This document shows positions 6,501 to 61,838 of a stretch of DNA of 64,000 nucleotides, piece after piece. The stretch is from Lepidurus packardi (lineage: Eukaryota; Arthropoda; Branchiopoda; Notostraca; Triopsidae), in assembly GCA_023053545.1 (NCBI GenBank), contig JAKZAN010000004.1:5084001-5148000 (forward strand), in the 5' to 3' direction. The translations under genes and the position numbers were made by a program. How positions within the stretch are numbered: position 1 is the first letter of the stretch; each line of letters begins with the position of its first letter. Under the pieces are notes generated by a model. That model did not search any database and was not told the DNA's origin. It saw nothing but the letters and a program-made list of their open reading frames with translations.

Positions 6501-9313
6501 AAGGGAACGATAACCATGGAATAGCAATACAAGCCTTGCTCTGCGAGGATCCATTCTGGACAATTTTGACTGTAGACTCCGACTAAAGTCTGTGGACCAG
6601 GCTGCAAGCCCAAAGCTACCAAACCCGAGCCAAAATTCTGCGCTCGTAATAATGCTTCCTCATACCGCATCCAATGGTAGGGACCTGTAGGACTTTCCCT
6701 AGCTCCCAAGCATGGACCATTATCTACCCAAGAAAAATGAAAAAGATTAGGAAATTACAATCTTTAGAAAAAACAAAAACTTTCTGACCTGAAGGATTAG
6801 TTTTCTAAGTAAATAGCTAAAAAATATTATTACTGGAAACTCGCGCTCCTCGCCGGAAAACATCGTAAAGCGTTTTGCAATCATCATACAAGTAACGCAT
6901 GTATTTCATATCCTTGCCATCTTTGGCAAATCGGGAGTAGTGGACCAATTCTGGGCCCTAGAGAGAAAAGGAAAAGATTTTGTTAGGCACAACAAATTTT
7001 TTTAGGTTAAAACAGGTGTCCCGAACCAAGTCAAATTTTTTCTCTCGCTCCTTATTTTTTTAAACAGGTTCCTCTCTATGTGTTCAGTATGGGTATTTTG
7101 GCTGATGCTTGCCTGCTGTTTTCAAAGACAGAAGTGAAAAGATGGAACGAGAAAACGTCATGTGGATTGGATCCATGCCCAAGCTTTTCCCCGAGTTCTC
7201 TTTTCTCTTTAACGACGGATTTAACACTCTTGAAGAAACGTGTATAAATAAACCACTTCTTTGCTTGCACCCCAAAGTCCAACTTACAGACGCCTTGGAC
7301 CGCCAAGCAAATAAATTCACAGCTAATGCGTTCTCATTATGAAAAGTCTTTCGATTGACTTGATTCACATAATAATCTATATCTTCATCAATTTTTTTCT
7401 CAATATTCAGGCACTTGATTTGATACTGTCATATTATTTTTAAAAACTAAACGTTTAATCAATTAAATATGTTAATCCATACGTTTTTGGAAAAACAACA
7501 ACTCTGAATGAAGTAATTGAAAAATGAAAAAGCCCTATTAATTAGTTGAAGCAAAATTCTACCTTGATTGTTTCCGACTGTTTGGCTAAATCTAACGGAA
7601 TGCGAATAGGCTCTGGAGGCACACACAAGTCGAGGCAACTCATTTTTGCAAATGTGTATAAAATCTTTCTCTTCTTTTCTGTTGCACTTTATAAATCGCC
7701 GCGAAATTAAAGTACTCCGATTCAGACCAACACAAGAAAATATAATCAAGTTCTCATTGCTCGGTGTATTAGAAGGTGGCAAAACTCGAAAATAGACCGG
7801 CAGAAGTTCACCAAACCAAGTTATGGAGGCAACTACTGGCCTGGTGAGACTTCCAGTAGCCAAATACAGACTTGAGACGAAGGAAGATATAAAAAATCAC
7901 GTGCCCCATGAAGTTTGGAAGTCTCTCTCCAAGCGTCCATCTCGTTTTTAGAAAAAGAAGAGTCAGGTGAGTCTCGGCTGGTATTTCAGCGCTCGGTCTT
8001 CGGAATGTTACGACCTCCCTGAGCAGCGTTTTCTCTAAACCCACCTCACCCCCTTTCTTCTCAAGATACCCTCAACTGTTTCAAAAATAGCAAATATCTA
8101 TATACGGTGACTACTTCACCTTTGACCAAAATATCGTCAACACGTTTGTCTTAGGCAACTTTAAACAAATTTTCTGCATATTCCATAAAATTTGAAACCG
8201 TTAACATCAATCCTTGTCCGACACTTCAAGATCAAGATTCCTCTTTTTAACCCCTCAAAGTAGCGTCACTTCTTGCACGGGAATTTTTCAAAATAGATAA
8301 TAAAATAAATAAAAAAAAATTACTTTTACTTTTTATTATTTAAAAGCAATGTTACCAAAAGTGTCACAGTATTTAATTTAAAGACTATTTCCTTACTTCT
8401 GTTATGTTACAGATTTAGGAAGTACAGTGTGCCTTCAGTTTCTGTAACTCTTGTAATATTACAAATGTATAACTGTAATTTTACTAATTTATTGGCACAA
8501 AACGGTACCACACTGTATAAATGCAAAAATGCCATGAAAGTCTATATGCGGTTGATGGCATAGTATGTAGACTTTCACATTAGGATAACAAGGATATCTT
8601 CCAATGTAAGGTATTGGGACCGACTTTATGGTTTACTGTGGAATTTATATAGGCCTACTGTGTTTCAATTTATGACACTGTCCTACTTAAAAGGGCGCTC
8701 AAAATGAAGGGCGAATTAAGGAGTTTCTAAGCTTCACCAGATGATTTTGCTGGAACGGAAATGACTTGACGACGAATTGAAGAGAAAAAAAAAACGAAAA
8801 AAAAAAGTTGCTTTTTTTCGCTGCAGCTGGGTGAAAATGGCAGCGATTCAAAACGGCGGGAACGCAAATTGTGTGGAACTTCTCCCATTGCGACCCCAAA
8901 ACCGTGCCCCAGTCCCGGTTCTCTTTCACAAGCTGAAATACAAGAATAGCAAAAGTGGGAAGCCTGTCCTTAATGGCGTCTATGCATTCTCTCGACATAA
9001 AAACCGAAATATTCGACGCTTCATAAATCGAGTCCCCTCTGGAGAAGACTGTGCGACGTTTTTATAAGATCCGCTCTATTCGCAGCCCAGAAATAATTTA
9101 CAACAAATTGACATAACTGCGAGAAACATCTCCATGATCAAGGTTAAAATTAAAAAGGAAAGGCTTTACCTCTGGGATTGTTTGTTGATCCAAGTCAAAA
9201 GGAGGCATAAGTGGTTTTCCTCGATTGGCCAGGTAATATGCTGAAGCTGCGGCTACACCTGTGAGTGCCAAGACACCTGCAGTTCCTCCCACGTAATGCA
9301 AGTACTGCTCCAT
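3569..9313 (-). CDS. ACSL: Long-chain fatty acid-CoA ligase (ACSL1/5/6 type)
   Basis: Activates long-chain fatty acids to acyl-CoA with ATP, normally on the ER or outer mitochondrial membrane. Exons in coding order: 9313-9170, 6957-6834, 6723-6454, 5627-5428, 5349-5149, 5065-4848, 4784-4634, 4303-3569. All phases agree and the product is 680 aa, close to the usual ~700 for this family. Visible features are an N-terminal hydrophobic anchor (about residues 7-28), the AMP-binding loop YTSGTTGNPKGV (about 258-269), the GYGQTE motif (about 440-445) and the GWLHTGD motif in the last exon. The ATG at 9313 lies just inside an acceptor (TTTTTAG), so a 5' non-coding exon probably exists upstream. The second intron is 2.2 kb (6958-9169), far longer than the others. 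I am sure of the family. Which ACSL paralogue it is cannot be decided here. Confidence 0.93.
6958..9169. other. Long intron of the ACSL gene
   Basis: This 2.2-kb intron separates the N-terminal anchor exon from the rest of the enzyme. It holds no recognisable coding sequence. It contains an imperfect hairpin at 8536-8576 (arms GAAAGTCTA / TAGACTTTC). Directly after it, 8581-8628 has a diverged copy near 46850. Both may be remains of a small mobile element. Confidence 0.6.
8536..8628. repeat. Hairpin plus dispersed repeat copy
   Basis: The arms at 8536-8548 and 8564-8576 are inverted copies of each other. The next ~48 bases (8581-8628, starting TAGGATAACAAGG) recur with few changes at 46850-46898. 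This suggests a short dispersed repeat or a miniature element end. The family is unknown. Confidence 0.45.
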
Positions 9314-49300: not shown

Positions 49301-50035
49301 TTACTTTTGGAGCAACGACTTCAGTACTTCCAGCCGCTCTTTGTGGCGTCTTTCACGAGATTCTTCCTTAAGCATCAGAGATTCTCGAATATCCCTGCGG
49401 AATTGACATATGACTCTTTCTGCCCGGCTGCTCTTTAATTTCTTCGGTTCAGGTTCTTCAGGCGTGAAATTGATGCTGTTAGTGGTACCTGTAATTGCTT
49501 CGATAATGCTGTTATTGGTAGTTGGAATTGCCTCCTCTTCCCCAGTAGCATTATGAGTAGTCTTGTACTCAACGCGGCCGACTCCCCTTCTGACTTCGGG
49601 CTGAATGGAATCATCTAAAGCAAGTATTTGGTCTAGCTCGCCTTCATACTCGACGTGAGCTCCTGTATTTCCAGATCTTCTGTTGTTGTCTATAGCTGCC
49701 TTCTTTCGCCTTATTACGGTCTTATACCGGCTTTCGCACTGGATCCAGGTTCTTGTTGATGATAATACTCTAGCCAGGTCAGTCGAAATCTGTTCCCACA
49801 TGTTTCTTTTCCTACGGAACTTTTTCATCGGGCCTACTTGTTCTATATATTGATTGTACTTATCCAATACAAATTTCGTCTCGCTTTCCGACCACTCGCA
49901 TGCCGCCGGTTTTTTAGTCAGGACTTCGGCTGTGGCTTCTTCTTCTCGTTCAATGATTCCTTGTTCTTCAAGGCATTTTCTTGACACAGCCTGCACTTTG
50001 ATTTCTCCTAACCGACTTTTTTTTTTCCAAATCAA
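49301..50035 (-). CDS. Myb/SANT-like DNA-binding protein of the Harbinger element
   Basis: An open frame of about 240 codons. Residues about 45-115 form a Myb/trihelix-type domain, with W-S-ES-T-FVLDKY, then FRRKRNMWEQISTDLA and WIQCESRYKTVIRRKK. The C-terminal third is a basic/acidic helix (RERRHKERLEVLKSLLQK). Harbinger elements carry a second gene of this kind whose product brings the transposase into the nucleus and onto DNA (NAIF1 is the domesticated form). No ATG is seen at the left edge of the frame. An acceptor-like TCGGTTAG lies near 50000, so an upstream exon probably supplies the start, and the true 5' end is uncertain. Confidence 0.72.
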   Translation of the reverse strand: MIWKKKSRLGEIKVQAVSRKCLEEQGIIEREEEATAEVLTKKPAACEWSESETKFVLDKYNQYIEQVGPMKKFRRKRNMWEQISTDLARVLSSTRTWIQCESRYKTVIRRKKAAIDNNRRSGNTGAHVEYEGELDQILALDDSIQPEVRRGVGRVEYKTTHNATGEEEAIPTTNNSIIEAITGTTNSINFTPEEPEPKKLKSSRAERVICQFRRDIRESLMLKEESRERRHKERLEVLKSLLQK

Positions 50036-50253
50036 TAAGAGGATATTTGCAACACAAATACAGAATACCTTCAGCTAGAACTGAGCAAAGAAAATCCTAT
50101 CATTGCTAAACCACTTTCACTAGGACGTATAAATTCCTGAAAAACCGCCATTTATTTCAGTAAAAACTTCTAAAAAAAAACGTAAGTTGCGCGGGCAAAA
50201 AGCATAAACAAGTATGGCTGCGGTTTACTCCTAAAATTACCAGCGTCCTGCAC
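50036..50253. other. Short flank between Harbinger gene and large transposon
   Basis: No gene is seen. It should contain the 5' end of the Myb-like gene and the insertion site of the large element. I could not identify a clear target-site duplication for either. Confidence 0.4.
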
Positions 50254-50268
50254 TATGGCATTCGGTAA

Positions 50269-51326
50269 GGGTAGGGGACGAACGGGCCCAGTTCCAAACG
50301 GGCCCACCTTGACCAAACGGGCCCAGTGCCAAAGAGGCCCAACCATTGACCAAACGGGCCCAGTCAACAGACCAAACGGGCCCACTATTTTGAAACATTG
50401 TAAACACCCTGTTGTGCTGTTTTACGGACTCAGGGAACAACACACGATATGGGTAAGACTCGACATGTATATATTTTCAAACATATCTATTGTATTGTAA
50501 CATATGTGAAATTAAGAATTGATCTTTTTTTGTATTGTTTTCTACTTAGAATGGCCCAGAAGAAATGAACTGGAAGTGGAAGTCTTACATTTTTGTAAGA
50601 GTAAAACAGACATCACTAAAGATCGCCATGAGGAAAGTGAAAAATACGGAAGTACTTGATGGTAATAATGAAGAATACGGAAGTACTCCATAGCATGGGA
50701 AAAAATTCCCAAACCAGCTATACTGTCGCATTACATAGTCATTACTGTCGCATAGTTATAGGGCAAGACTTCCTCTTCGAGTTGGATTTTGTCTCGACCA
50801 TACTACGGAGAAAACAATACAAAGAACGATAAATACAGCAAGTCGATGTCAAAACTCGTACAAAGAAGTATTGCTATAAATATTTAGTATGCTCTTGTCC
50901 AGTCTTATATAAAGTCCATCCCAATCCAGCTAACAGTCGTACTATACTTCAGTAGCCACTTCTTAGACTTTTAATATAGACTTTTAGTTTTTTAATATAG
51001 TTTTGGGCAAGACTTCCACTTCCAGTTCATTTCTTCTGGGCCATTCTAAGTAGAAAACAATACAAAAAAAGATAAATACTTAATTTCACATATGTTACAA
51101 TACAATAGATATGTTTGAAAATATATACATGTCGTGTCTTACCCATATCGTGTGTTGTTCCCTGAGTCCGTAAAACAGCACAACAGGGTGTTTACAATGT
51201 TTCAAAATAGTGGGCCCGTTTGGTCTGTTGACTGGGCCCGTTTGGTCAATGGTTGGGCCTCTTTGGCACTGGGCCCGTTTGGTCAAGGTGGGCCCGTTTG
51301 GAACTGGGCCCGTTCGTCCCCTACCC
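50269..51326. mobile_element. Foldback (MITE-like) element nested in the left terminal repeat
   Basis: 1,058 bp with arms 50269-50586 and 51009-51326, which are inverted copies of 318 bp with only a few mismatches. The element starts GGGTAGGGGACGAACGGGCCC-like and ends with the inverse. It is flanked by the 8-bp duplication TTCGGTAA (50261-50268 and 51327-51334). Each arm begins with five or six spaced copies of ACGGGCCCA. The 422-bp centre has no coding frame. An 8-bp duplication is what hAT and P-type transposases produce. No transposase is encoded, so it must be mobilised in trans. Confidence 0.88.
50761..50837 (-). repeat. Diverged third arm copy inside the foldback element
   Basis: Starts GGGCAAGACTTCC and ends GATAAATAC, following the order of the inner end of the right arm (from about 51005), including AGAAAACAATACAAA, but with many substitutions. 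It indicates an older duplication within the element. Confidence 0.5.
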
Positions 51327-51628
51327 TTCGGTAAGCCCCAAAACTATTTGATATACAACAGAAAACGGACTTGACTGATAGCCTAAAAGACGACCCGTAA
51401 AAATCTATCAAACGCTATCAAGTTGTATCAAACCTTCTTTCAAACGCTATCAAGTTGTATCAAAACTTCTATCAACTGCTATCAACTTGTATCAAAACTT
51501 CTATCAACTGCTATCAACTTGTATCAAACTCCACCTAGTGTATCAACTTCGAACAAGTTGTATCAAACTTTCTCTTCTGTGTTTTCAAGTGCTATCAACT
51601 CACCGATTTTGTACAAGTTTGTCTCGCC

Positions 51629-51644
51629 TGGCCCGGGCCAGGCT
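51629..51644. repeat. Perfect 16-bp palindrome, left copy
   Basis: CCTGGCCCGGGCCAGG reads the same on both strands. An identical copy occurs in the right terminal repeat at about 58975-58990. It is very GC-rich within an AT-rich element and marks the inner boundary of each terminal repeat. Confidence 0.75.
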
Positions 51645-52003
51645 CGCTTCAAGGGACGGCCATTTTGTTGTTAGCTGTGACAACAGCTTATATCGTCCAG
51701 ACTTTAGCCTTGTTTTTGAATGACGATTGTTTTTCGTATTCTTAATAAGACTAATAGTGTCCTGTTTCTTAATAAGACTAGTAGTAATAGTTACCTGTCC
51801 AATAATAGTGAAGACAAAGAAGATTTTTACTAAGTCTTATAGTGAAAAAAAAACAACACTTCTAAGAAAGTGTTGTTTAAATTAATTGGTAAGTTTTTAG
51901 AAGAGGACAGTTTGATATTACTATTATTTTTATAATACTCTTTCCGGTTTGGGATCCCGCGCTTTTTCAATACTTTTAACTTCATTTGAAGAAAACGATT
52001 AAC

Positions 52004-53733
52004 ATGGACGAATTCACGGATTTTTTCGAAAGTTTGCGAACTAAGATACCTTACTGGCGTGAATCCTACCCAACGGATGATGCTACGTTGGTTGAGCGCA
52101 CTGTTTCTGATATCGAGTCTTATTATCGCGCAATTAGTGGGTTACTACTGCGAAAGGTTAGTGCGTTTATGATTTAAACAAATTAATCTATTTTCTGGCG
52201 ACTGCCATTCAGGAAGCATTTACTCCTCCTGTCGTTGCGACACTTGAAAGTTTACTTGATGGTGTTAGTGCCGCACTGGAAATCTGGAAGTCGTTACCAG
52301 TAGCCACCAGCTCGTGTTGCGCTTTGTATTTTGCTCCGAATAAGCAACGTACACTTCACGATGGCGGTAATGGGAGACCCAGGTACTTGATTTTACAAGA
52401 ACAAGTTCAAGAACTCTGCTCTTTCGGTAAGCTAGGATATTTAAAAGTAAATGCAATAGCCCCGTCATTTCGATATAGGTTTTAACTGTAAACAGATTGC
52501 GGGGATGCTAGGAGTCTCGCGTAATACTATGTCTCGTCGCTTTGCCGAATGGGGGTTACAAAGGAAATTTAGGTAATTGTGTTGTTTTAAATGACTTGCT
52601 CGTTTTTGTACTTTTAGTACGTCCATTACCTAGGTTTTCGAATGTTTCCGACGCTGAATTGATCAACGTAATTCGAGAAATTCATCTTGACCATCGACAT
52701 TTAGGATGTACCGTGCTTTATGGGCTTCTACGTGCAAGAGGTTTGCACATACAACGAGACAGAGTCCATTCAGCCCTTCGCCAATGTGATCCGCTTAATG
52801 TAACGTTTCTAACTTCTTTTTTATTCGTGTTAGTTGTATTTTATTGCCTCTCAGGTTCGAAGGAGATGGGGTGCGCTGGTGACCCGAAAAAAATATTCGG
52901 TGAAGGGTGCCAATTCTCTCTGGCATATAGATGGCCATCATTCTTTGATTCGCTGGGGCATCGTAATCCATGGTGGCATAGATGGCTTTTCTCGGCTCGT
53001 TGTGTTCCTTTCTGCGAGCGGAAACAACCGTGCCGCTACTGTGTTGAAGCGTTTTGAAGAAGCTGCCGAGAGCTACGGTTATCCTTCACGAGTGAGAAGT
53101 GACAAAGGGCTAGAAAATGTCTTAGTTTGTCGACGAATGGTCGAAGTACGCGGTGTTGGTCGGCGAAGTTTTATTACGGGACGCAGCGTTCACAATCAGA
53201 GGATTGAACGTCTTTGGCGCGATGTGTACCGTTGCTTCGTTATCACGTACTATTCCCTATTTTACCATTTCGAACATTCGCAGATACTCGACCCATCGAA
53301 CCCGTATCACATTTTTGCTCTACGCTACGTCTTCTTGCCAAGAATTAACGCGGGACTTAAAAGATTTCGACAAGGATGGAACTTCCATAAACTTCGCACG
53401 GAACGTAATTGGAGCCCTAATATGATATGGGTAAATAACATGATTAGCCTTGCCGAAGAGCCTGACGAGGTTGACGACAGTTATGGAGTCGATGATGACG
53501 GTCCAGCTGACCCAGAATTGGACAATTACAATGAAGCCTCCGAGGATGAAGCAATTAACGAAACTGCGGATTACCCGTGTCCCATGAGTGGCGAGAATTA
53601 CCGTCTACTTTGCGAACATATTAATCCTCTGAAAATCTCTACAAATCATGCGCAAGATGTTTTCGAGGAAGTTTTGAATTATTTGGAAACCTTGCGTGAG
53701 AATAACGATTTCGTCATGTTGCCGCGAGTGTAA
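52004..53733 (+). CDS. Integrase-type (rve, DDE) transposase of the large element
   Basis: Five exons: 52004-52156, 52213-52426, 52479-52572, 52634-52799, 52855-53733, giving 501 aa. Residues about 123-150 form a helix-turn-helix (FNCKQIAGMLGVSRNTMSRR). The core after residue 230 has the acidic triad: Asp 235 in LWHIDGHH, Asp 292 in VRSDKGLEN and Glu 327 in HNQRIERLWRD, with 34 residues between the last two. An acidic linker (DDDGPADPELDN) and a C-terminal helical region follow. This is the integrase core type seen in invertebrate and fish genes often annotated only as integrase core domain protein. All catalytic residues and frames are intact, so it could be active. The stop overlaps a donor-like GTGTAAGT, but no in-frame continuation was found. 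ATG 52004 is the first in frame. Confidence 0.85.
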
Positions 53734-53815
53734 GTTTCCCCGCAACTGTTAGCTTCTTGGCGCTGGACGGGTAAACACGTTTTTGCTCCAAGTTTTAATA
53801 CCAAAATATCTCGTG

Positions 53816-56800
53816 ATGGATTCGTCATCGAAGGTTTTAAAACAAGTATTGTGGGATTTGGGAAAGGAACATTTATTGGAAACCTTTAAATTAAATATGG
53901 TAATTACATTTTCAATGACTTTGTGGACACCACATGTTATTGACAATCAACCGCATGCTATATTGTTTATATATTTTTAACAGATGCATATAGTAATAAC
54001 TTTCTGATGCATAGACGAAGGCGTGTCAAAATAATCTGTTCTCTTGTCTTTTTGGACAGATAACCGACGAAAACGCCAAATTCATTAGCGAGGCTCAACT
54101 AAACGCTCTTGGTTTGACAGAGATTGGTTTGCAGCTTAACTTTAAGTCTTTCTTCCGGAAACATGAAGAAGGTACCTATGGCTTACCTGGACAAAGCCAG
54201 TGTACCAACGCTGTTTCGCAGTATAATTCTCCTTCCATAGGTTTGTTATTTTCAACTTAATTTGTTTTATACATACCACTATCGTCTTTTAGTATAGGAC
54301 AGTCTCATGAAAATGCGTTCCGGCGATTATCGCAAGCTGAATGTGCCACAAATAATTTGTCTCAAGTCGAGAAGGAGTGTCGTGATGCATTCAAACCATA
54401 CAGCAAGCCTACAAATTTCAAAAACAAACGTCACAAAATTGATGAATCTTATTTTGACTCACCATCATCGGTAGCTAAGCTAGAGTCAAGCCGTGGTAAA
54501 CGGAGCATGCCGCGTCATTTGGAAGATGACCGTATTGTTGGGTTTTTGAAATGGAATTCGCAAACAACAGCGGCCAGAAACGTCATTGTTGAAACGTCCA
54601 TGCAACTGGGTGCCCACGATTCAGCAACCGTAGTGATGGAACGTATAATTTCCTTCTTGAGCCGTCGGCCAAAGGTTTATAAATATATGTATGTATATTG
54701 TATATTTATTTATTCTTTTTCCCCTAGTTTGCCTTCGTGTCACATCATGATATCCAACTAGTCCGTGTAAAAGGGCGAGAGGTTCACGAGGTAGATGTCG
54801 AAAAGATAGATGGGGCAACTATTTGTAGGTTTTATCCAAAAGAAAAGTCTGCCGTTTATTTTCGAGCTCGGGTAACCCGTTTCATAACAACAATAAAAAT
54901 CGTAAACCTACTATCGTTTTACAGGAATGGGAATTGGTTAAAGGAGAGAATCCAAAGCGAGCTCCCCAATCAGATTCCGACTCCGATTTTGAAATTACTG
55001 CCAGACCCTTGACGGTACACAGTCCTCGCTTCTTCAAACCTTTTACTTAATTCTGCCTTTTTTCATACCAAAACTTACCAGAAAAAGACAGTTGATCTTT
55101 CTTCTTCGGACACGGATTCCAATGCACGTACCCAGGATGTACCCCAGTATTCTGCGCTTTCTCCAAGTAAACCATCAGTCAAAGAGTCCGAAATCGCTGA
55201 TGATGGTAAAAAAAGTGAAACCCTCCCCGATTTTGTTAATTTTATGGACTCCATTGGCGGGTACTGCACTAATATTTTTTCTAAACAAAAATACTTACAC
55301 AGTTACAAGTAGGATTGTTTCAAACGGAACTGGGTCGCGTGAGCTTAACCTTCCCGTCTTTGTCCCTGTAATGGATACAACGTCCGTTGGCGACAAGTAC
55401 GTGAAGTATTTCCCACCTTCTTTAAGAGGCAACTAATTTTGTTCTTTCCAGAGCTAGTAATCGGTCCCTCATAATAGATGTGTTAAATACGCTCAAGTCA
55501 AGTATGCTGCCTGGCGTTGTCCAAATTTATTCAACAAGAAGCAATGCGTTTTCGAAGTTCTGCGAAAAGTCACAATTAGATAGCAAATTGGTGATGAAAC
55601 ACCTCAGCGTGACCCTGGCAGGGGAATCTGGAATTGACGCTGGAGCGTTGACTAGGGAGTTCTGTCGTCTTGCGCTTATTCAAGCTTTCCAGGAGCTGTG
55701 TGAGCCCGCCCCGTTTGGATATATTTTTTCATCCAGTGCACTGGCATTGGAAGAGGAGAAGTTCGTTCATTTTGCCAAACTTATCGTTGTCGCACTTTTG
55801 AATGGCCATCCAGGTCCCAAAAGCTTCGCTCCGGCAGTCGCTAATTGGCTTTTGCAATGCCGTAAAGCTGACGCAGAACCGTCCATTTGCGATATTCCCG
55901 GAGAAGAACTGAGAAGCACTTTGACGAATGTAATAATAAAAAAACATGTTGCGGTTATAAAATCAATATTTGCAGGTACGTGACGCTGGCTCGAAAGAGG
56001 AATTTTTAGCATTGCTTTCCCACACTGATTTGCTATCAAAACTTGGCTGCAGACGTTTGCCATCGTTTAACGAAAAGGATTCCTTTATTAAAGCGGCTTG
56101 CAAATTCTTTGTTATTCACAGCGTGAAAGCGCCGATGGACCAGTTTTTACAAGGTAAGCTGTTAATTACAGTGCTAAGTAAAGTGGACCAATAAACGATC
56201 CGTAACTTTTCATAGGTTTGGGAGAATTAAATTTCTTGGATTCGGCCAGACAATTGCCAGATCATTTCTGGCCGTTATTTGTTGCTAAATCAGTTGACGA
56301 TATAGTTGCCAAGGAACTAGTAGAATTGTTCCAAATTGAGTTTGCGGATATCGGTAATACGAAACGCCCAAAAGAAGAGGCTGTTATAGAACACCTTTTT
56401 AACACGTGGCAAGAGATTGAAGGTGAATATAGAGCTATAGTTACACTTTTATAAAAAATTTTGACCTATTAATGTTTTCCGACTTTAGAGTGTCCGCTTC
56501 AATGTCAGATCTATTTGCCCGGCTTGACCGCTGCCGAAGATACCCAAACAAGTGAAACAGTAGCCTTAAGTCTGGGTTGCTTTCTCACATTTGCAACTGG
56601 TTCACAAGGGTTAAGCGCTGTGGGGTATGGGAGTTTTACCCCTACCATCCAATTTTACCACCCCGCGCCTGAAGAGGACAATGCTAAGTTTTATATCACT
56701 GCCCATGTATGTGCAAATACCGTCATCATTCCTGTTACCAAAAACTATCAGAGTTATGATGAATTTAAAACAATGTTCATCACTTCAATAGCGTCCTCAC

Positions 56801-56820
56801 CAGAATTTGGCAGGATTTAA
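53816..56820 (+). CDS. HECT-domain E3 ubiquitin ligase (G2E3-like) carried by the transposon
   Basis: Eleven exons: 53816-53899, 54060-54240, 54298-54674, 54728-54871, 54925-55014, 55082-55205, 55303-55396, 55452-55929, 55976-56153, 56216-56422, 56489-56820. Phases all match and the product is 762 aa. The N-terminal ~65 residues look like a SAM-type helical bundle (ENAKFISEAQLNALGLTEIG). A Ser/Asp-rich linker and then a HECT domain follow. It has VTLAGESGIDAGALTREF in the N-lobe, and in the C-lobe FATGSQGLS, then AHVCANTVIIP with the catalytic Cys (about 727) and a final helix. HECT enzymes take ubiquitin on this Cys and pass it to substrates. The gene lies 82 bp behind the integrase gene inside the same terminal repeats. 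Whether it serves transposition is inference. Confidence 0.85.
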
Positions 56821-58966
56821 GAATATTCAATTTGATCATGCTATAGGCTATGCTATAGGTTAAGTTATTAAATTAACCTAACCCAACTTTAACCCATCCA
56901 GGTAAAAAAATAGCACACCGGTGTTTGCTGATTTCAATCTGAAGAGCAGCAGATAATAGTATTATTCAAGTGCCTTAAATTGTTTTTATACCAAATTGGT
57001 CCATTATGATTATTGTTATCTGATTAGCATTTACTGTACTCAAGTGCCATTTATTCCAAATTGATGCGTTTTTATCGTTATCAGCAGTCCATTTGTGATC
57101 TCGTCTGTTTTGTGGCGACCCTCGTCTGATTTGAATATTACTGCATACTCAAGTGCCTTCAATAATTATACCAAATTAATTACAATTTTTTAATCGTTGC
57201 TGGCTTATTACTACCGCGCTCTCATAAGTGCCTTCAATAATTATACTAAATTTGATCCTTCTATGCTGTTTGACTTCAATCTGTTATGATGGTGTCTGAT
57301 TTCAATCTGAAGAGCAGATAATAGTATTATTCAAGTGCCTTAAATTGCTGTTATACCAAATTGATAAATTGGACGGTATTTGGTCCATTTTATGGTCCTT
57401 GATTATTAAGAAAAGAAACGGACGCATCTAACTTATCGATCGATCTTTAATTTATGTTTTATGTTTCATGCAGCATAGGTACCGGAACACTATAAAACAA
57501 GAATTAACTTTAATGAATATATGCTAATTATCTAAATATATAAAATAAATGTTCAAAATAAATACAGATAAAAAAGATGAGCTATTAACAAATCCTGTGA
57601 CCGTGCCGTTTATGGATTCATTTTAGCGTATCCGCGTCTAAGGTAAATATTTTGTGCTTGTGTTAATTATTAGCTATATATGATCCTGCTGTTCTAATAA
57701 ATCAATATCATCAAGTAATTACACTACCAAATCAGGCTATAGAAATTAATCAAGCAAACGCATCACTTCGAAGAAAAGTACTACAGAATTCCAATAATAA
57801 GTTTCGAACAGATTCGATTAATAACGTACACTCCGTGTTATTTTTCACTGTATTGGTTTTTGCATGGGATTCAATTACAAAGATGTAATAATTTGACCAC
57901 ACTTTTGAATAATAAAAGGTTACGAGGGAGGGCAATAAAATTCTGCAGCAACAAAGATGAAAAAGGTGAATGAAAAATATCGAAACGAAATTGCAATGAA
58001 ACAGGAATTATTACTTTTAAAAAAACCGAATAATCTCAAGTACAGTATTTAAATACTCCATGTGAGGTTATATACCTTTATTAGTCGGATAGTCGTTGGA
58101 AGTAATTTAAATTATTCCGCGTGTTTGTGTGTTATATATTTATCTTTTCGTAGCAGTAAATTAACTGTGCGCCTATGTTCCAAATTAAATATAATTATAA
58201 CGCTCAATTAGAAAGAGATTTATTACTATAATACCCTTACCACTTTTTAACCATTATTATACAGACCCTTTTGAAACAATAAATCAAACAAATGAAGTAC
58301 TACGGAATGCAATTTATACATGCTATGTTTCAATGTATTTATTTTTGCACGATATAACAATCTGAAAAATACGTTTGAATAAAAGCGCTAAATATGGTAC
58401 ACGTTATTATTTTGCGAGGAAAGGAACACGTATAATCTGCAACCATAATAATGCTCATATTATATCACTAACAGGTATAACCAACTTTAAAAAACATTGC
58501 ACTATAATGAAAAAACCTGTATTCAAATAAATAAGAGATTGTAGACCAGAAATAAGGATATAAGTATAATATCACAATAAACTGATGAAACTATATAAAT
58601 TAACAGCAGACTATACCAATAATGAATAAACCTACTCCCATTAGAACTTATTAATTAACTCCTCAAACAAGTATAACGCTTATGAGTGCAATCTAAATAC
58701 TTTATATGTATTCGCCACAACAATATTATTATTACAGGCTTATTATTGTTACTATAGTGTGTAAAAAAAAACATTTCGCATAATATTATATCATGACATA
58801 AACAATCGGCATTCAAACAAATCATAACAAGAGGGGTTTGTTAAATGAACGTTAGAATATAGCAGAGTTTTGTTGAGGCTTTGAGCCTGTTTACTGTGGG
58901 CAATACGCAATAATAATAATAATAATAAATCATAAATAAATAACAATAACAAATAGGCGTGGTTTG
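56821..58966. other. AT-rich non-coding tail of the large transposon
   Basis: About 2.1 kb with no coding frame of note. 56929-57364 carries a series of short direct repeats (see separate entry). The rest is A/T-rich single-copy-looking sequence. An AAT microsatellite lies just before the right terminal repeat at about 58910-58950. Confidence 0.6.
56929..57364 (+). repeat. Direct repeats in the transposon tail
   Basis: A ~70-bp unit starting TGATTTCAATCTGAAGAGCAG occurs at 56929-56998 and again at 57298-57364. Its second half, CAAGTGCC...TATACCAAATT, occurs alone three more times at about 57039-57064, 57148-57178 and 57222-57253. This makes five copies of the short word in the same orientation. 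Confidence 0.65.
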
Positions 58967-59329
58967 GAAGCGAGCCTGGCCCGGGCCAGGCGATAAAATC
59001 AGTGAGTTGATAGCACTTGAAAACACAGTCGTTTCGCATTTCGCGTTTGGTTTGTATGTCTGTACGCGTTTTCAGAGAAAGTTTGATACAACTTGTTCGA
59101 AGTTGATACACTAGGTGGAGTTTGATACAAGTTGATAGCAGTTGATAGAAGTTTTGATACAAGTTGATAGCAGTTGATAGAAGTTTTGATACAACTTGAT
59201 AGCGTTTGAAAGAAGGTTTGATACAACTTGATAGCGTTTGATAGATTTTTACGGGTCGTCTTTTAGGCTATCAGTCAAGTCCGTTTTCTGTTGTATATCA
59301 AATAGTTTTGGGGCTTACCGAATGCCATA
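58967..59329 (-). repeat. Right terminal inverted repeat (uninterrupted)
   Basis: The inverse of the left terminal repeat. It contains the palindrome, about a dozen TATCAA words (here as TTGATA), and ends GGGGCTTACCGAATGCCATA. The junction GCTTACCGAATGCC is continuous here, so this copy shows the state before the foldback insertion. Compared with the left copy it has an extra ~45 bp near 59020-59080. Confidence 0.85.
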
Positions 59330-61838
59330 CCGCAGTATGCATATGTAAACCTATATACGTTGGTGTATTCGTGTAGACATTTTGTTACGTTTAAAACGGA
59401 CGATTTTGATAAATTTAGGTTGTGCAAGTCCAATCAAGATGCCGCGGGTGTTATTCTTTGCCAAAAATGTCTGTTCCAATTCGCAATTTCTTTTTCTTAG
59501 GAGAGACATCCTTAATTCTTCGGCTAGTCTAAGGTTTGCATGTTATGTAATGAAGATGGGTGAAAACATGACGTACCACGTGTGAGAGTAATGGATTTAG
59601 GAAAGATTGTTAAAATGTATCTAATAATTTGATAAAATGTAATAGATTCGTAATAATAAAAGGACCATCGTAAAAGGTCCACCTTACGTCATCCTTTGGT
59701 TGGTCGTCCTTATTACGTAATTATTAATACGGCTTACATTTTTTTGTGGTTAGCCAACGAGCAGAAACTTCTTCAACTCGCTATGCTACTGGCTCTTGAC
59801 AGGGTTAGATACATGTCGTTCTTCTGTCGAATTGTCCTTGTGTCTGCGGCCAGGATTGTACCATGATCAAGATTATAGTTATTGATTGTGCAGTCTTAAC
59901 GCTGGAATAACTTCCTTAACTGCATCGATCTCTTGGTAATATATAATCTGTCATATGTTTATATAATTTCAGGCCTAATCTATTTTTTTTACCTTAGATG
60001 TTGCTTAACTGTACTGGCTTTATGGTTTGCGTATACAGAAAGAGGAGAAGACTATATTGAACAACCCTAAGTAATATTCCTTGGTGCGTTGACGTACCAA
60101 TGGATCTTCTGGCTGTGAATCTGGTGGTTATATGCAGTCTTATAGAAATCAGTTTCAAACTAGTCTTCCGTCAGTTATTTAAGAAATTGAAAAATTGATT
60201 TTAAAAATGTTGTCTACATTTCAGTTATTAAAAATCCAACTGCTGTACTTTAAGGCAACACTGGCACATTGGAAGGTTCCCGATGTTCAGCATAACAGGT
60301 TCTGAGTTCGACTTTGTGTTATTGTAAAATTTTTGAGATTTGAGTAGAACTGTAACGCTTGTTTTCGTAATTTTTTGCTTTTGTTGTTAAAATGTACCCC
60401 TCCCAAACATTGCTTTAGCGCTCAGTTTTCCGCAAATTTTTTGTTCTGTGACTTCTATTAGCTCCCGAAATTAGGTAAATGAGTTGTTTTGTATCCCCCG
60501 GAATTCCTTTGTTGCTTCTTTTGTACCCAAGCGTTCCCCATAAAATTTTTTGGTTTATAAAAATTTTATTTTTACTGCACGATTTGTAATTTTTTTCTTA
60601 ATAAAAGGGAAAATTTGGGCAATTCTTGCGTGATTTTTCGTAAAATCCGCGAAAATGGGCGTGGCCTCCACAAAAAGGACGAATCCTATTGGTGGATAGG
60701 ACCAAAAAGGGGGCGTGGTTTCTTTTCGATCTGTAAAAGCGTTTTCTGGGCTTTTTTCCATAAGGATCCCTGCACGATCAAGGGGGTCCCCTTCAAAAAT
60801 CGTCAAAAATTGAGAGCCTCGCCCCTTTCCCTGTTGCCAACTCCCCTGCTCGGTTTCCTATTCCGGATATTCAAGCTCGTGATGCCAAAGCATCACAATT
60901 TCGGATATGGGTACAGGAAGCTTGCCGGGAAGGCATAAGGTACAGAGCAAGGAAGCCATCTAATATTTTGTTTTTTTGACGAAATAAAAGTGCCTCGACC
61001 TGGTTTCGATCCGACGACCTCTCGCACCCAAGTCCTGCGTCTTATCCACTTGGTCGTAAGCTAATCGTAAAATGTTTTGAAACTTCTACAAATAACATTA
61101 ACAAAGCTGGTGTACGGGTGCGTGGGTAGCATACATCTTTTGTTCGATTTATAAAAATATGACGGTTCGCTTTAGCCATACCTTGTATTCTCCAGAAGTT
61201 GATATTATTATATTGTATCATTTTTTATGTATTTCTATGTATTTGCCGCCTTGAACGCACCGACCTCTCTCACTTTCGTCGTACTGAAAACCAAGTACTT
61301 ACTCTCGTAATAAATAAAAAACACCGCAGCACAAGCGCCAAATCATAAAAACTTGTTTGCAAGAAAATTATATGTATTTTTCTCAAAAATTCGCACAAGA
61401 ACCACGTTCCCAAACACACTGCTCTCGAATCAGAATGGCGAAACAGACCTAATACACGACTCCGCAGTACCAGGTCTGCCACGCAAACGACGTAAGTATC
61501 CAGGTTTGGTGTCATCAGCATTGAAAAAATAACACCTTGAATCCGGTTATATGTGTGTTTACACATTTACATAAACACAAATTTCCATAGCGAACAATTT
61601 TATGACGTTTCTATTTGTTGATCACAAGTAACCCAAATAATTTTACGCCATTCCTTCAGCAAACTTTCGATTTCCACCTCGGGATTTGCGTACGCCTTTC
61701 TCAGTTGCTCCTTCCTATTCAGCTCGAACGGTCTTTTGCTAGGCTTGAAGTAAAAAGTCCTCAAGGGAGCTCTTTTACTATTTTACTTTGCGTCAGAGCC
61801 TTCCTAGGAAAGGGCCCTAGTGTAAAAGTTTATGTAAG
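59330..61838. other. Intergenic stretch right of the transposon
   Basis: No protein-coding gene recognised. Frames up to 107 codons (60615-60938) have no family signature. A tRNA-like sequence is present on the minus strand at about 60990-61063. The left part is AT-rich. Confidence 0.5.
60990..61063 (-). other. tRNA-Pro-like relic or SINE head
   Basis: On the minus strand the sequence contains TTGGGTGCGAGAGGTC, which is the anticodon loop (TGG), 3' stem and variable region of tRNA-Pro. A B-box-like GGATCGAAACC and the end GAGGCAC follow. The 5' side does not pair. The expected CTCGC half of the anticodon stem is AGGAC, and the acceptor stem has several mismatches. A working tRNA is therefore unlikely. 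A pseudogene or the head of a tRNA-derived SINE fits better. Confidence 0.4.

Follow-up and report, generated by a model that had tools for sequence, protein, structure and literature searches.

Several described transposons frame the element reported here. IS3EU elements, which form one lineage with GingerRoot, always have TA..TA ends, usually produce 6-bp target-site duplications and have no HHCC motif (PMC10045372). A fungal IS3EU group with TAYGG..CCRTA ends carries a TET/JBP dioxygenase and an alpha-kinase (PMC12730594), and the "Intons" presented by Kapitonov are IS3EU-derived fungal transposons with five to six proteins; the 2012 meeting report that covers this talk adds that host-derived proteins in several superfamilies may regulate transposition (PMC3520738). 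In Kolobok elements, a lineage-specific gene for an accessory nuclease or helicase accompanies the DDD/E transposase (PMC9587614). Here, we analysed a 64,000-bp stretch of the Lepidurus packardi genome (C3:5084001-5148000, hereafter the window), in which a transposon at 50254-59329 encodes a DDE transposase and a predicted HECT ubiquitin ligase. Ubiquitin-system enzymes are unexpected in such transposons. Sequence comparison makes it very probable that this is a young IS3EU/GingerRoot-type transposon with a HECT accessory gene under selection, a reading that extends to no particular ligase target.

The window family resembles the IS3EU/GingerRoot elements of PMC10045372 in its TA..TA termini, 6-bp duplications, IS3/IS481-related transposase, lack of HHCC and N-terminus resembling a helix-turn-helix (HTH) domain, but differs in its HECT gene; HECT and ubiquitin occur 0 times in that paper. 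With the fungal TET-bearing elements it shares 6-bp duplications, the ends (here TATGG..CCATA) and the combination of a transposase with accessory enzymes. There, however, the kinase lies opposite to the transposase, whereas here a single HECT gene has the same orientation, and PMC12730594 likewise contains 0 occurrences of HECT or ubiquitin. The Intons offer an IS3EU ancestor with extra conserved proteins, which the passage on them does not list; the sole "hect" string in PMC3520738 sits in "trophectoderm". Kolobok elements, although alike in pairing a lineage-specific gene with the transposase, belong to another superfamily and carry other enzymes, again with 0 occurrences of HECT or ubiquitin (PMC9587614). 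No paper reporting a HECT gene in an IS3EU element was found in the literature searched; such an element may be known in Repbase or in the original GingerRoot paper.

The gene pair recurs between shared ends

Comparison with window positions 51320-59340 as the query revealed at least eight full copies on six of the 344 contigs of the 108.6-Mb genome (two each on C1 and C3, one each on C2, C5, C16 and C46). The seven copies outside the window are 8,009-8,030 bp long and 99.75-100% identical to the window copy over 8,003-8,023 aligned columns, with all HECT exons identical in all seven and all transposase exons identical in six. In each of the eight copies, a five-exon transposase gene is followed, 82 bp downstream and on the same strand, by an 11-exon HECT gene. 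The arrangement proposed in the preliminary description is thus borne out by 16 exons, modelled by hand from GT-AG sites and open frames rather than from RNA. Complete sets of transposase and HECT exons were confined to eight places in whole-genome protein searches. All seven non-window copies are bounded by perfect 6-bp target-site duplications in distinct flanks (TTGCAG, GTCCAT, TGGAAC, GTCCCT, ATTTTT, CCCCTC and GTGAAG in the element's orientation). These copies and duplications, for which the preliminary description had suggested looking, establish an element family, and the occurrence of the gene pair between shared ends is far beyond chance, given at least eight copies. From an identity of 99.75-100% at separate places we infer very recent movement, and the element is probably still mobile.

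An accidental pairing, with HECT in one element and DDE in another nested in it or next to it, has next to no chance of being the explanation. Nesting does occur here, since a foldback insertion lies in the left terminal repeat of the window copy. Against this, the eight copies have both genes within one pair of terminal repeats, the duplications surround the whole in all seven non-window copies, and a diverged relic described below, L033, retains the order at ~79-82% DNA identity. For the window family, accidental nesting is refuted by the copies.

Both ends of the window copy, TATGGC..GCCATA, were confirmed where they had been placed, but the 9,076-bp span between them includes the 1,058-bp foldback, which splits the left repeat, is flanked by an 8-bp duplication (TTCGGTAA) and is missing from all seven other full copies. 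Once it is subtracted, the element proper measures ~8,010 bp. The 6-bp flanks of the window copy (ctgcac and ccgcag) are identical at four of six bases. Inverted repeats are present at both ends, as first described, although the length of ~340-360 bp then given needs revision: the perfect part measures 249 bp at the window locus, against 256 bp in the intact copy L010, and ~350-385 bp is reached only if imperfect inner blocks are counted in.

When the right terminal repeat served as the query, 40 of 111 first-look candidates were scored, making the following counts lower bounds. At least 41 genomic matches were obtained, 15 at the eight full copies and at least 26 elsewhere. Terminal repeats that are gene-less at every other place, which would have spoken against the original proposal, are not what was seen. 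Of the 26, 16 were fetched; HECT matched in none of these, and the transposase sequence kept by several did not go beyond the start of the gene. These loci look like non-autonomous derivatives. One gene-less derivative among the 26 (L024) is 289 bp long with the 6-bp duplication CCGCTG, and another derivative, found by the transposase search (L038; 1,080 bp, duplication CTGCAA), retains transposase exon 1.

The transposase and the predicted ligase

The transposase matches PF24764 (rva_4) with an E-value of 5.7e-81 (271 bits) and has the triad D235, D292 and E327, the last two separated by 34 residues. Its residues 122-338 match the NCBIfam models IS481 (E 1.4e-14, 54.3 bits) and IS3 (E 1e-12, 48 bits), under the respective cut-offs of 224 and 160. 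At E<=5, ten Pfam families matched the N-terminal 207 aa, HTH families (including HTH_21) for the most part and all sub-cut-off; no zinc-binding integrase domain or HHCC motif was among them. The element fits the IS3EU/GingerRoot superfamily, by features rather than by a tree: TA..TA termini in the window copy and all seven others, 6-bp duplications in the seven non-window copies (four of six bases in the window copy), and a DDE transposase related to IS3/IS481, albeit below the model cut-offs, that yields no HHCC-type match. Ginger1, characterized by an HHCC motif and 4-bp duplications in PMC10045372, does not fit, with no HHCC-type match and 6-bp duplications here. Regarding the mode of transposition, the cut-and-paste label attached to the element earlier did not find support, as no empty site was seen. 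IS3-type relatives can transpose by routes other than cut-and-paste.

The protein encoded downstream passes PF00632 in a protein scan (E 4.4e-7, 30.3 bits, cut-off 23.9). Its predicted catalytic residue, Cys743 (AHVCANT), aligns with the catalytic Cys of AREL1 at an E-value of 0.034, not significant alone, and its equivalent is kept in L033. The closest solved structures are those of TOM1 and AREL1 (E ~0.03; best PDB E 0.029) and of UBE3A, and likeness to the E2-binding N-lobe of known HECTs is limited to a short stretch, the GESGIDAGALTREF region. With these ligases the element protein shares the C-lobe with its catalytic Cys and the PF00632 score above cut-off, but it differs from them in weak pairwise similarity, an N-terminus of no known family and its location in a transposon. 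Based on these comparisons, it is a distant member of the HECT E3 ligases, with a predicted ligase role. The earlier statement that integrase triad and HECT Cys are both intact agrees with the gene models.

Selection, ancestry and possible roles of the HECT gene

In the older relic L033 (C1:6828500-6837500), a deletion has brought HECT exon 9 directly behind exon 2 of the transposase (window 52269 joined to 56036); beyond it, the rest of HECT (exons 9-11) and the 3' region follow in unchanged order at the identity given above. Over 214 codons, the nonsynonymous (dN) and synonymous (dS) divergences between L033 and the element HECT are 0.105 and 0.51, giving a dN/dS of 0.20. Differences by codon position amount to 26/215, 16/217 and 58/217 (third versus first and second positions, Fisher p 3e-8), as compared to 28/130 for non-coding bases, with one stop and 10 gap columns in the HECT comparison. 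In a second relic (L034, C3:921500-930500) the element match is confined to HECT exon 10, where 61 codons give a dN/dS of 0.27. Transposase pieces gave values of 0.58 in L033 (69 codons), 0.24 in L038 (46), 0.33 in L036 (43) and 0.20 in L021 (42). The HECT values point to purifying selection on its C-terminal quarter, and the true constraint was probably stronger, since the relics went on drifting once dead. By this sign, a young element seems to benefit from a ubiquitin ligase.

A second, distant family extends the comparison. PF24764 has 13 matches in the genome, eight in the window family and five at four distant loci, where the transposase core is 36-42% identical to that of the window family. 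On C6, a DDE match (5752195-5752707, +) is followed ~6.3 kb downstream by a HECT C-lobe in which the Cys is intact (5759051-5759320, +). On C2, a DDE fragment (2634682-2634969, +) is followed ~130 bp on by a HECT C-lobe (2635098-2635289, +) that is degraded, 65% identical to that on C6 and has Tyr at the Cys position. With 26 other HECT loci in the genome, 16 of them on C1-C6, the crude chance of a HECT neighbour at two of four loci is ~5e-6. An open reading frame (ORF) of 312 aa lies between the second-family DDE and HECT sequences (L029:6966-7901). It is hAT-like by eye only; a 153-aa piece of it matched no Pfam family above cut-off, and 122 aa match L031 at 29%.

At E<=1e-3, a genome search with the element HECT protein (52 candidates scored) found nothing beyond the eight copies and relics at C1:6832603-6833366 and C3:925745. 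No other genomic HECT thus matches that of the element, and recent capture from a gene still present in the host is unlikely. The gene might still be a passenger, captured once from a host and merely carried. Host-gene capture by DNA transposons is common and, to our knowledge, HECT is not required for DDE transposition chemistry; moreover, the selection signal comes from one relic and a 61-codon piece. Set against these points are the dN/dS of 0.20 versus the diverged L033, the same gene order at two of four places in the second family and the result of the genome search, which speaks against recent capture. We consider it very unlikely that HECT is carried idly, and on these comparisons it is probably not a passenger.

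Searches were also made in other genomes. No transposase relative was found in viral contigs with a single query and a 3-sequence alignment, and profile searches with PF24764, PF00632 and PF00110 gave 0 matches in 14 control genomes. In the genome that holds the window, the Wnt search (PF00110) gave 42 matches, which marks it as that of an animal. Contigs of prokaryote genomes contained three IS3EU-like transposases (L040, L041 and L042), 51-60% identical in the best segment. Past the match, L040 runs into a retrotransposon, while ~1.2 kb are left in L041 and ~60 bp in L042. The three contigs are filed under a Cycloclasticus sponge-symbiont metagenome-assembled genome and look like contamination from the sponge host; L040 also has a retrotransposon-like polyprotein.

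Several results weigh against a selected HECT accessory gene in an IS3EU/GingerRoot-type transposon. The HECT domain score is modest (30 bits), residues 1-263 matched no Pfam family, and alignment-free structure predictions had low confidence, with predicted local distance difference test scores (pLDDT) of 39 for exon 11 alone (56491-56817) and 41 for exon 8 alone (55453-55929, the GESGIDAGALTREF region). A six-frame search of the whole genome with PF00632 gave 62 matches, 0 of them at the eight element copies, which shows how far the element HECT has diverged. The selection test covers residues 561-778, residues 1-560 having no diverged copy, and its signal derives from L033 plus the 61 codons of L034. 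In the second family, the ORF described above separates DDE and HECT over ~6.3 kb at C6, where nesting could yet apply, and element ends were searched for there and not found. No HECT lies near L030 and L031, two of the four distant loci, which share 98% identity over 3,158 bp. The view of the ligase as a standard cargo holds in the window family and is supported at two of four places in the second. BLASTP gave no significant similarity between the C-lobes of the two families' HECT genes, which may go back to one old acquisition or two. The gene pair was seen in no second species, the three apparent sponge contigs being too short to tell, and all of the evidence consists of sequence comparison.

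Two roles for the ligase compete. As a tentative first choice, it would act in trans, its targets being silencing, repair or chromatin proteins with which the host limits the transposon. A precedent is given by the TET/JBP dioxygenases of fungal transposons, IS3EU among them, which have been proposed to help these elements escape methylation-based silencing (PMC12730594); animal IS3EU elements would join them in carrying regulatory or counter-silencing enzymes of their own. A second possibility, also held with reserve, is that HECT serves the transposase or strand-transfer complex, by limiting or timing its level or by marking the post-integration complex for removal, leading to gap repair. 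The two genes lie on one strand with 82 bp between them, and a strong splice donor at 53730, with a perfect GTAAGT consensus, contains the transposase stop codon. Among the seven frame-compatible AG sites listed for this donor is an acceptor at 54293, in frame with it and five bases upstream of the modelled HECT exon-3 acceptor at 54298; the different phases of 54293 and 54298 would allow HECT to be either fused to the transposase or made separately. Such a fusion transcript or protein is possible, if speculative. There is a smaller chance that the target is neither a host silencing or repair protein nor the transposase complex.

Under the favoured accessory-gene reading, the transposase would bind the subterminal 32-bp repeats and join the element ends to the target with a 6-bp stagger, and the ligase, made together with the transposase, would ubiquitylate a protein that limits transposition. 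The HECT cargo would in that case offer a handle on the proteins that a transposon must remove or alter. More boldly, and rather doubtfully, HECT could be a long-standing partner of animal IS3EU elements across families of 36-42% identity, a counter-defence or remodelling factor, perhaps made as a fusion, that aims ubiquitylation at the integration site. Some annotated animal HECT genes may be transposon-borne.

Layout of the window copy and neighbouring sequences

Table 1 Features of the transposon copy at window positions 50254-59329.
Feature	Position	Strand	Details
Left terminal inverted repeat, outer 15 bp	50254..50268	+	TATGGCA + TTCGGTAA (50261-50268), the first of two 8-bp copies flanking the foldback
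Foldback insertion, not part of the element	50269..51326	.	GGGTAGGGG..CCCCTACCC ends; 320-bp arms, 99% complementary
Left terminal inverted repeat, remainder	51327..51575	+	Opens with second TTCGGTAA copy (51327-51334); 100% complementary to 59074-59322
Subterminal tandem repeat	51404..51528	+	32-bp unit x 3.9; putative binding sites of the transposase
Left terminal repeat, imperfect inner extension	51577..51672	+	
DDE transposase gene	52004..53733	+	501 aa; 5 exons: 52004-52156, 52213-52426, 52479-52572, 52634-52799, 52855-53733
Intergenic spacer	53734..53815	+	82 bp
Predicted HECT E3 ligase gene	53816..56820	+	778 aa; 11 exons: 53816-53899, 54060-54240, 54298-54674, 54728-54871, 54925-55014, 55082-55260, 55310-55396, 55452-55929, 55976-56153, 56216-56422, 56489-56820
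Right terminal repeat, imperfect inner extension	58945..59028	-	
Right terminal inverted repeat	59074..59329	-	Ends GCCATA; 256 bp perfect versus left repeat in L010
Subterminal tandem repeat	59121..59245	-	32-bp unit x 3.9

The foldback contains GGGCCCGTTTGG-type repeats and is a separate mobile element. Just outside the left end of the transposon, a minus-strand ORF (49301-50074, 257 aa) encodes a Myb/SANT-like domain (Myb_DNA-bind_4, E 1e-7), which we take to be of the type known beside Harbinger transposases. Elsewhere in the assembly, 13 HECT matches on nine small contigs (C109, C123, C133, C150, C174, C188, C198, C243 and C309) contain in-frame 26 TAG, 25 TAA and 2 TGA codons; these contigs are possibly contaminants from an organism that reads TAA and TAG as an amino acid.

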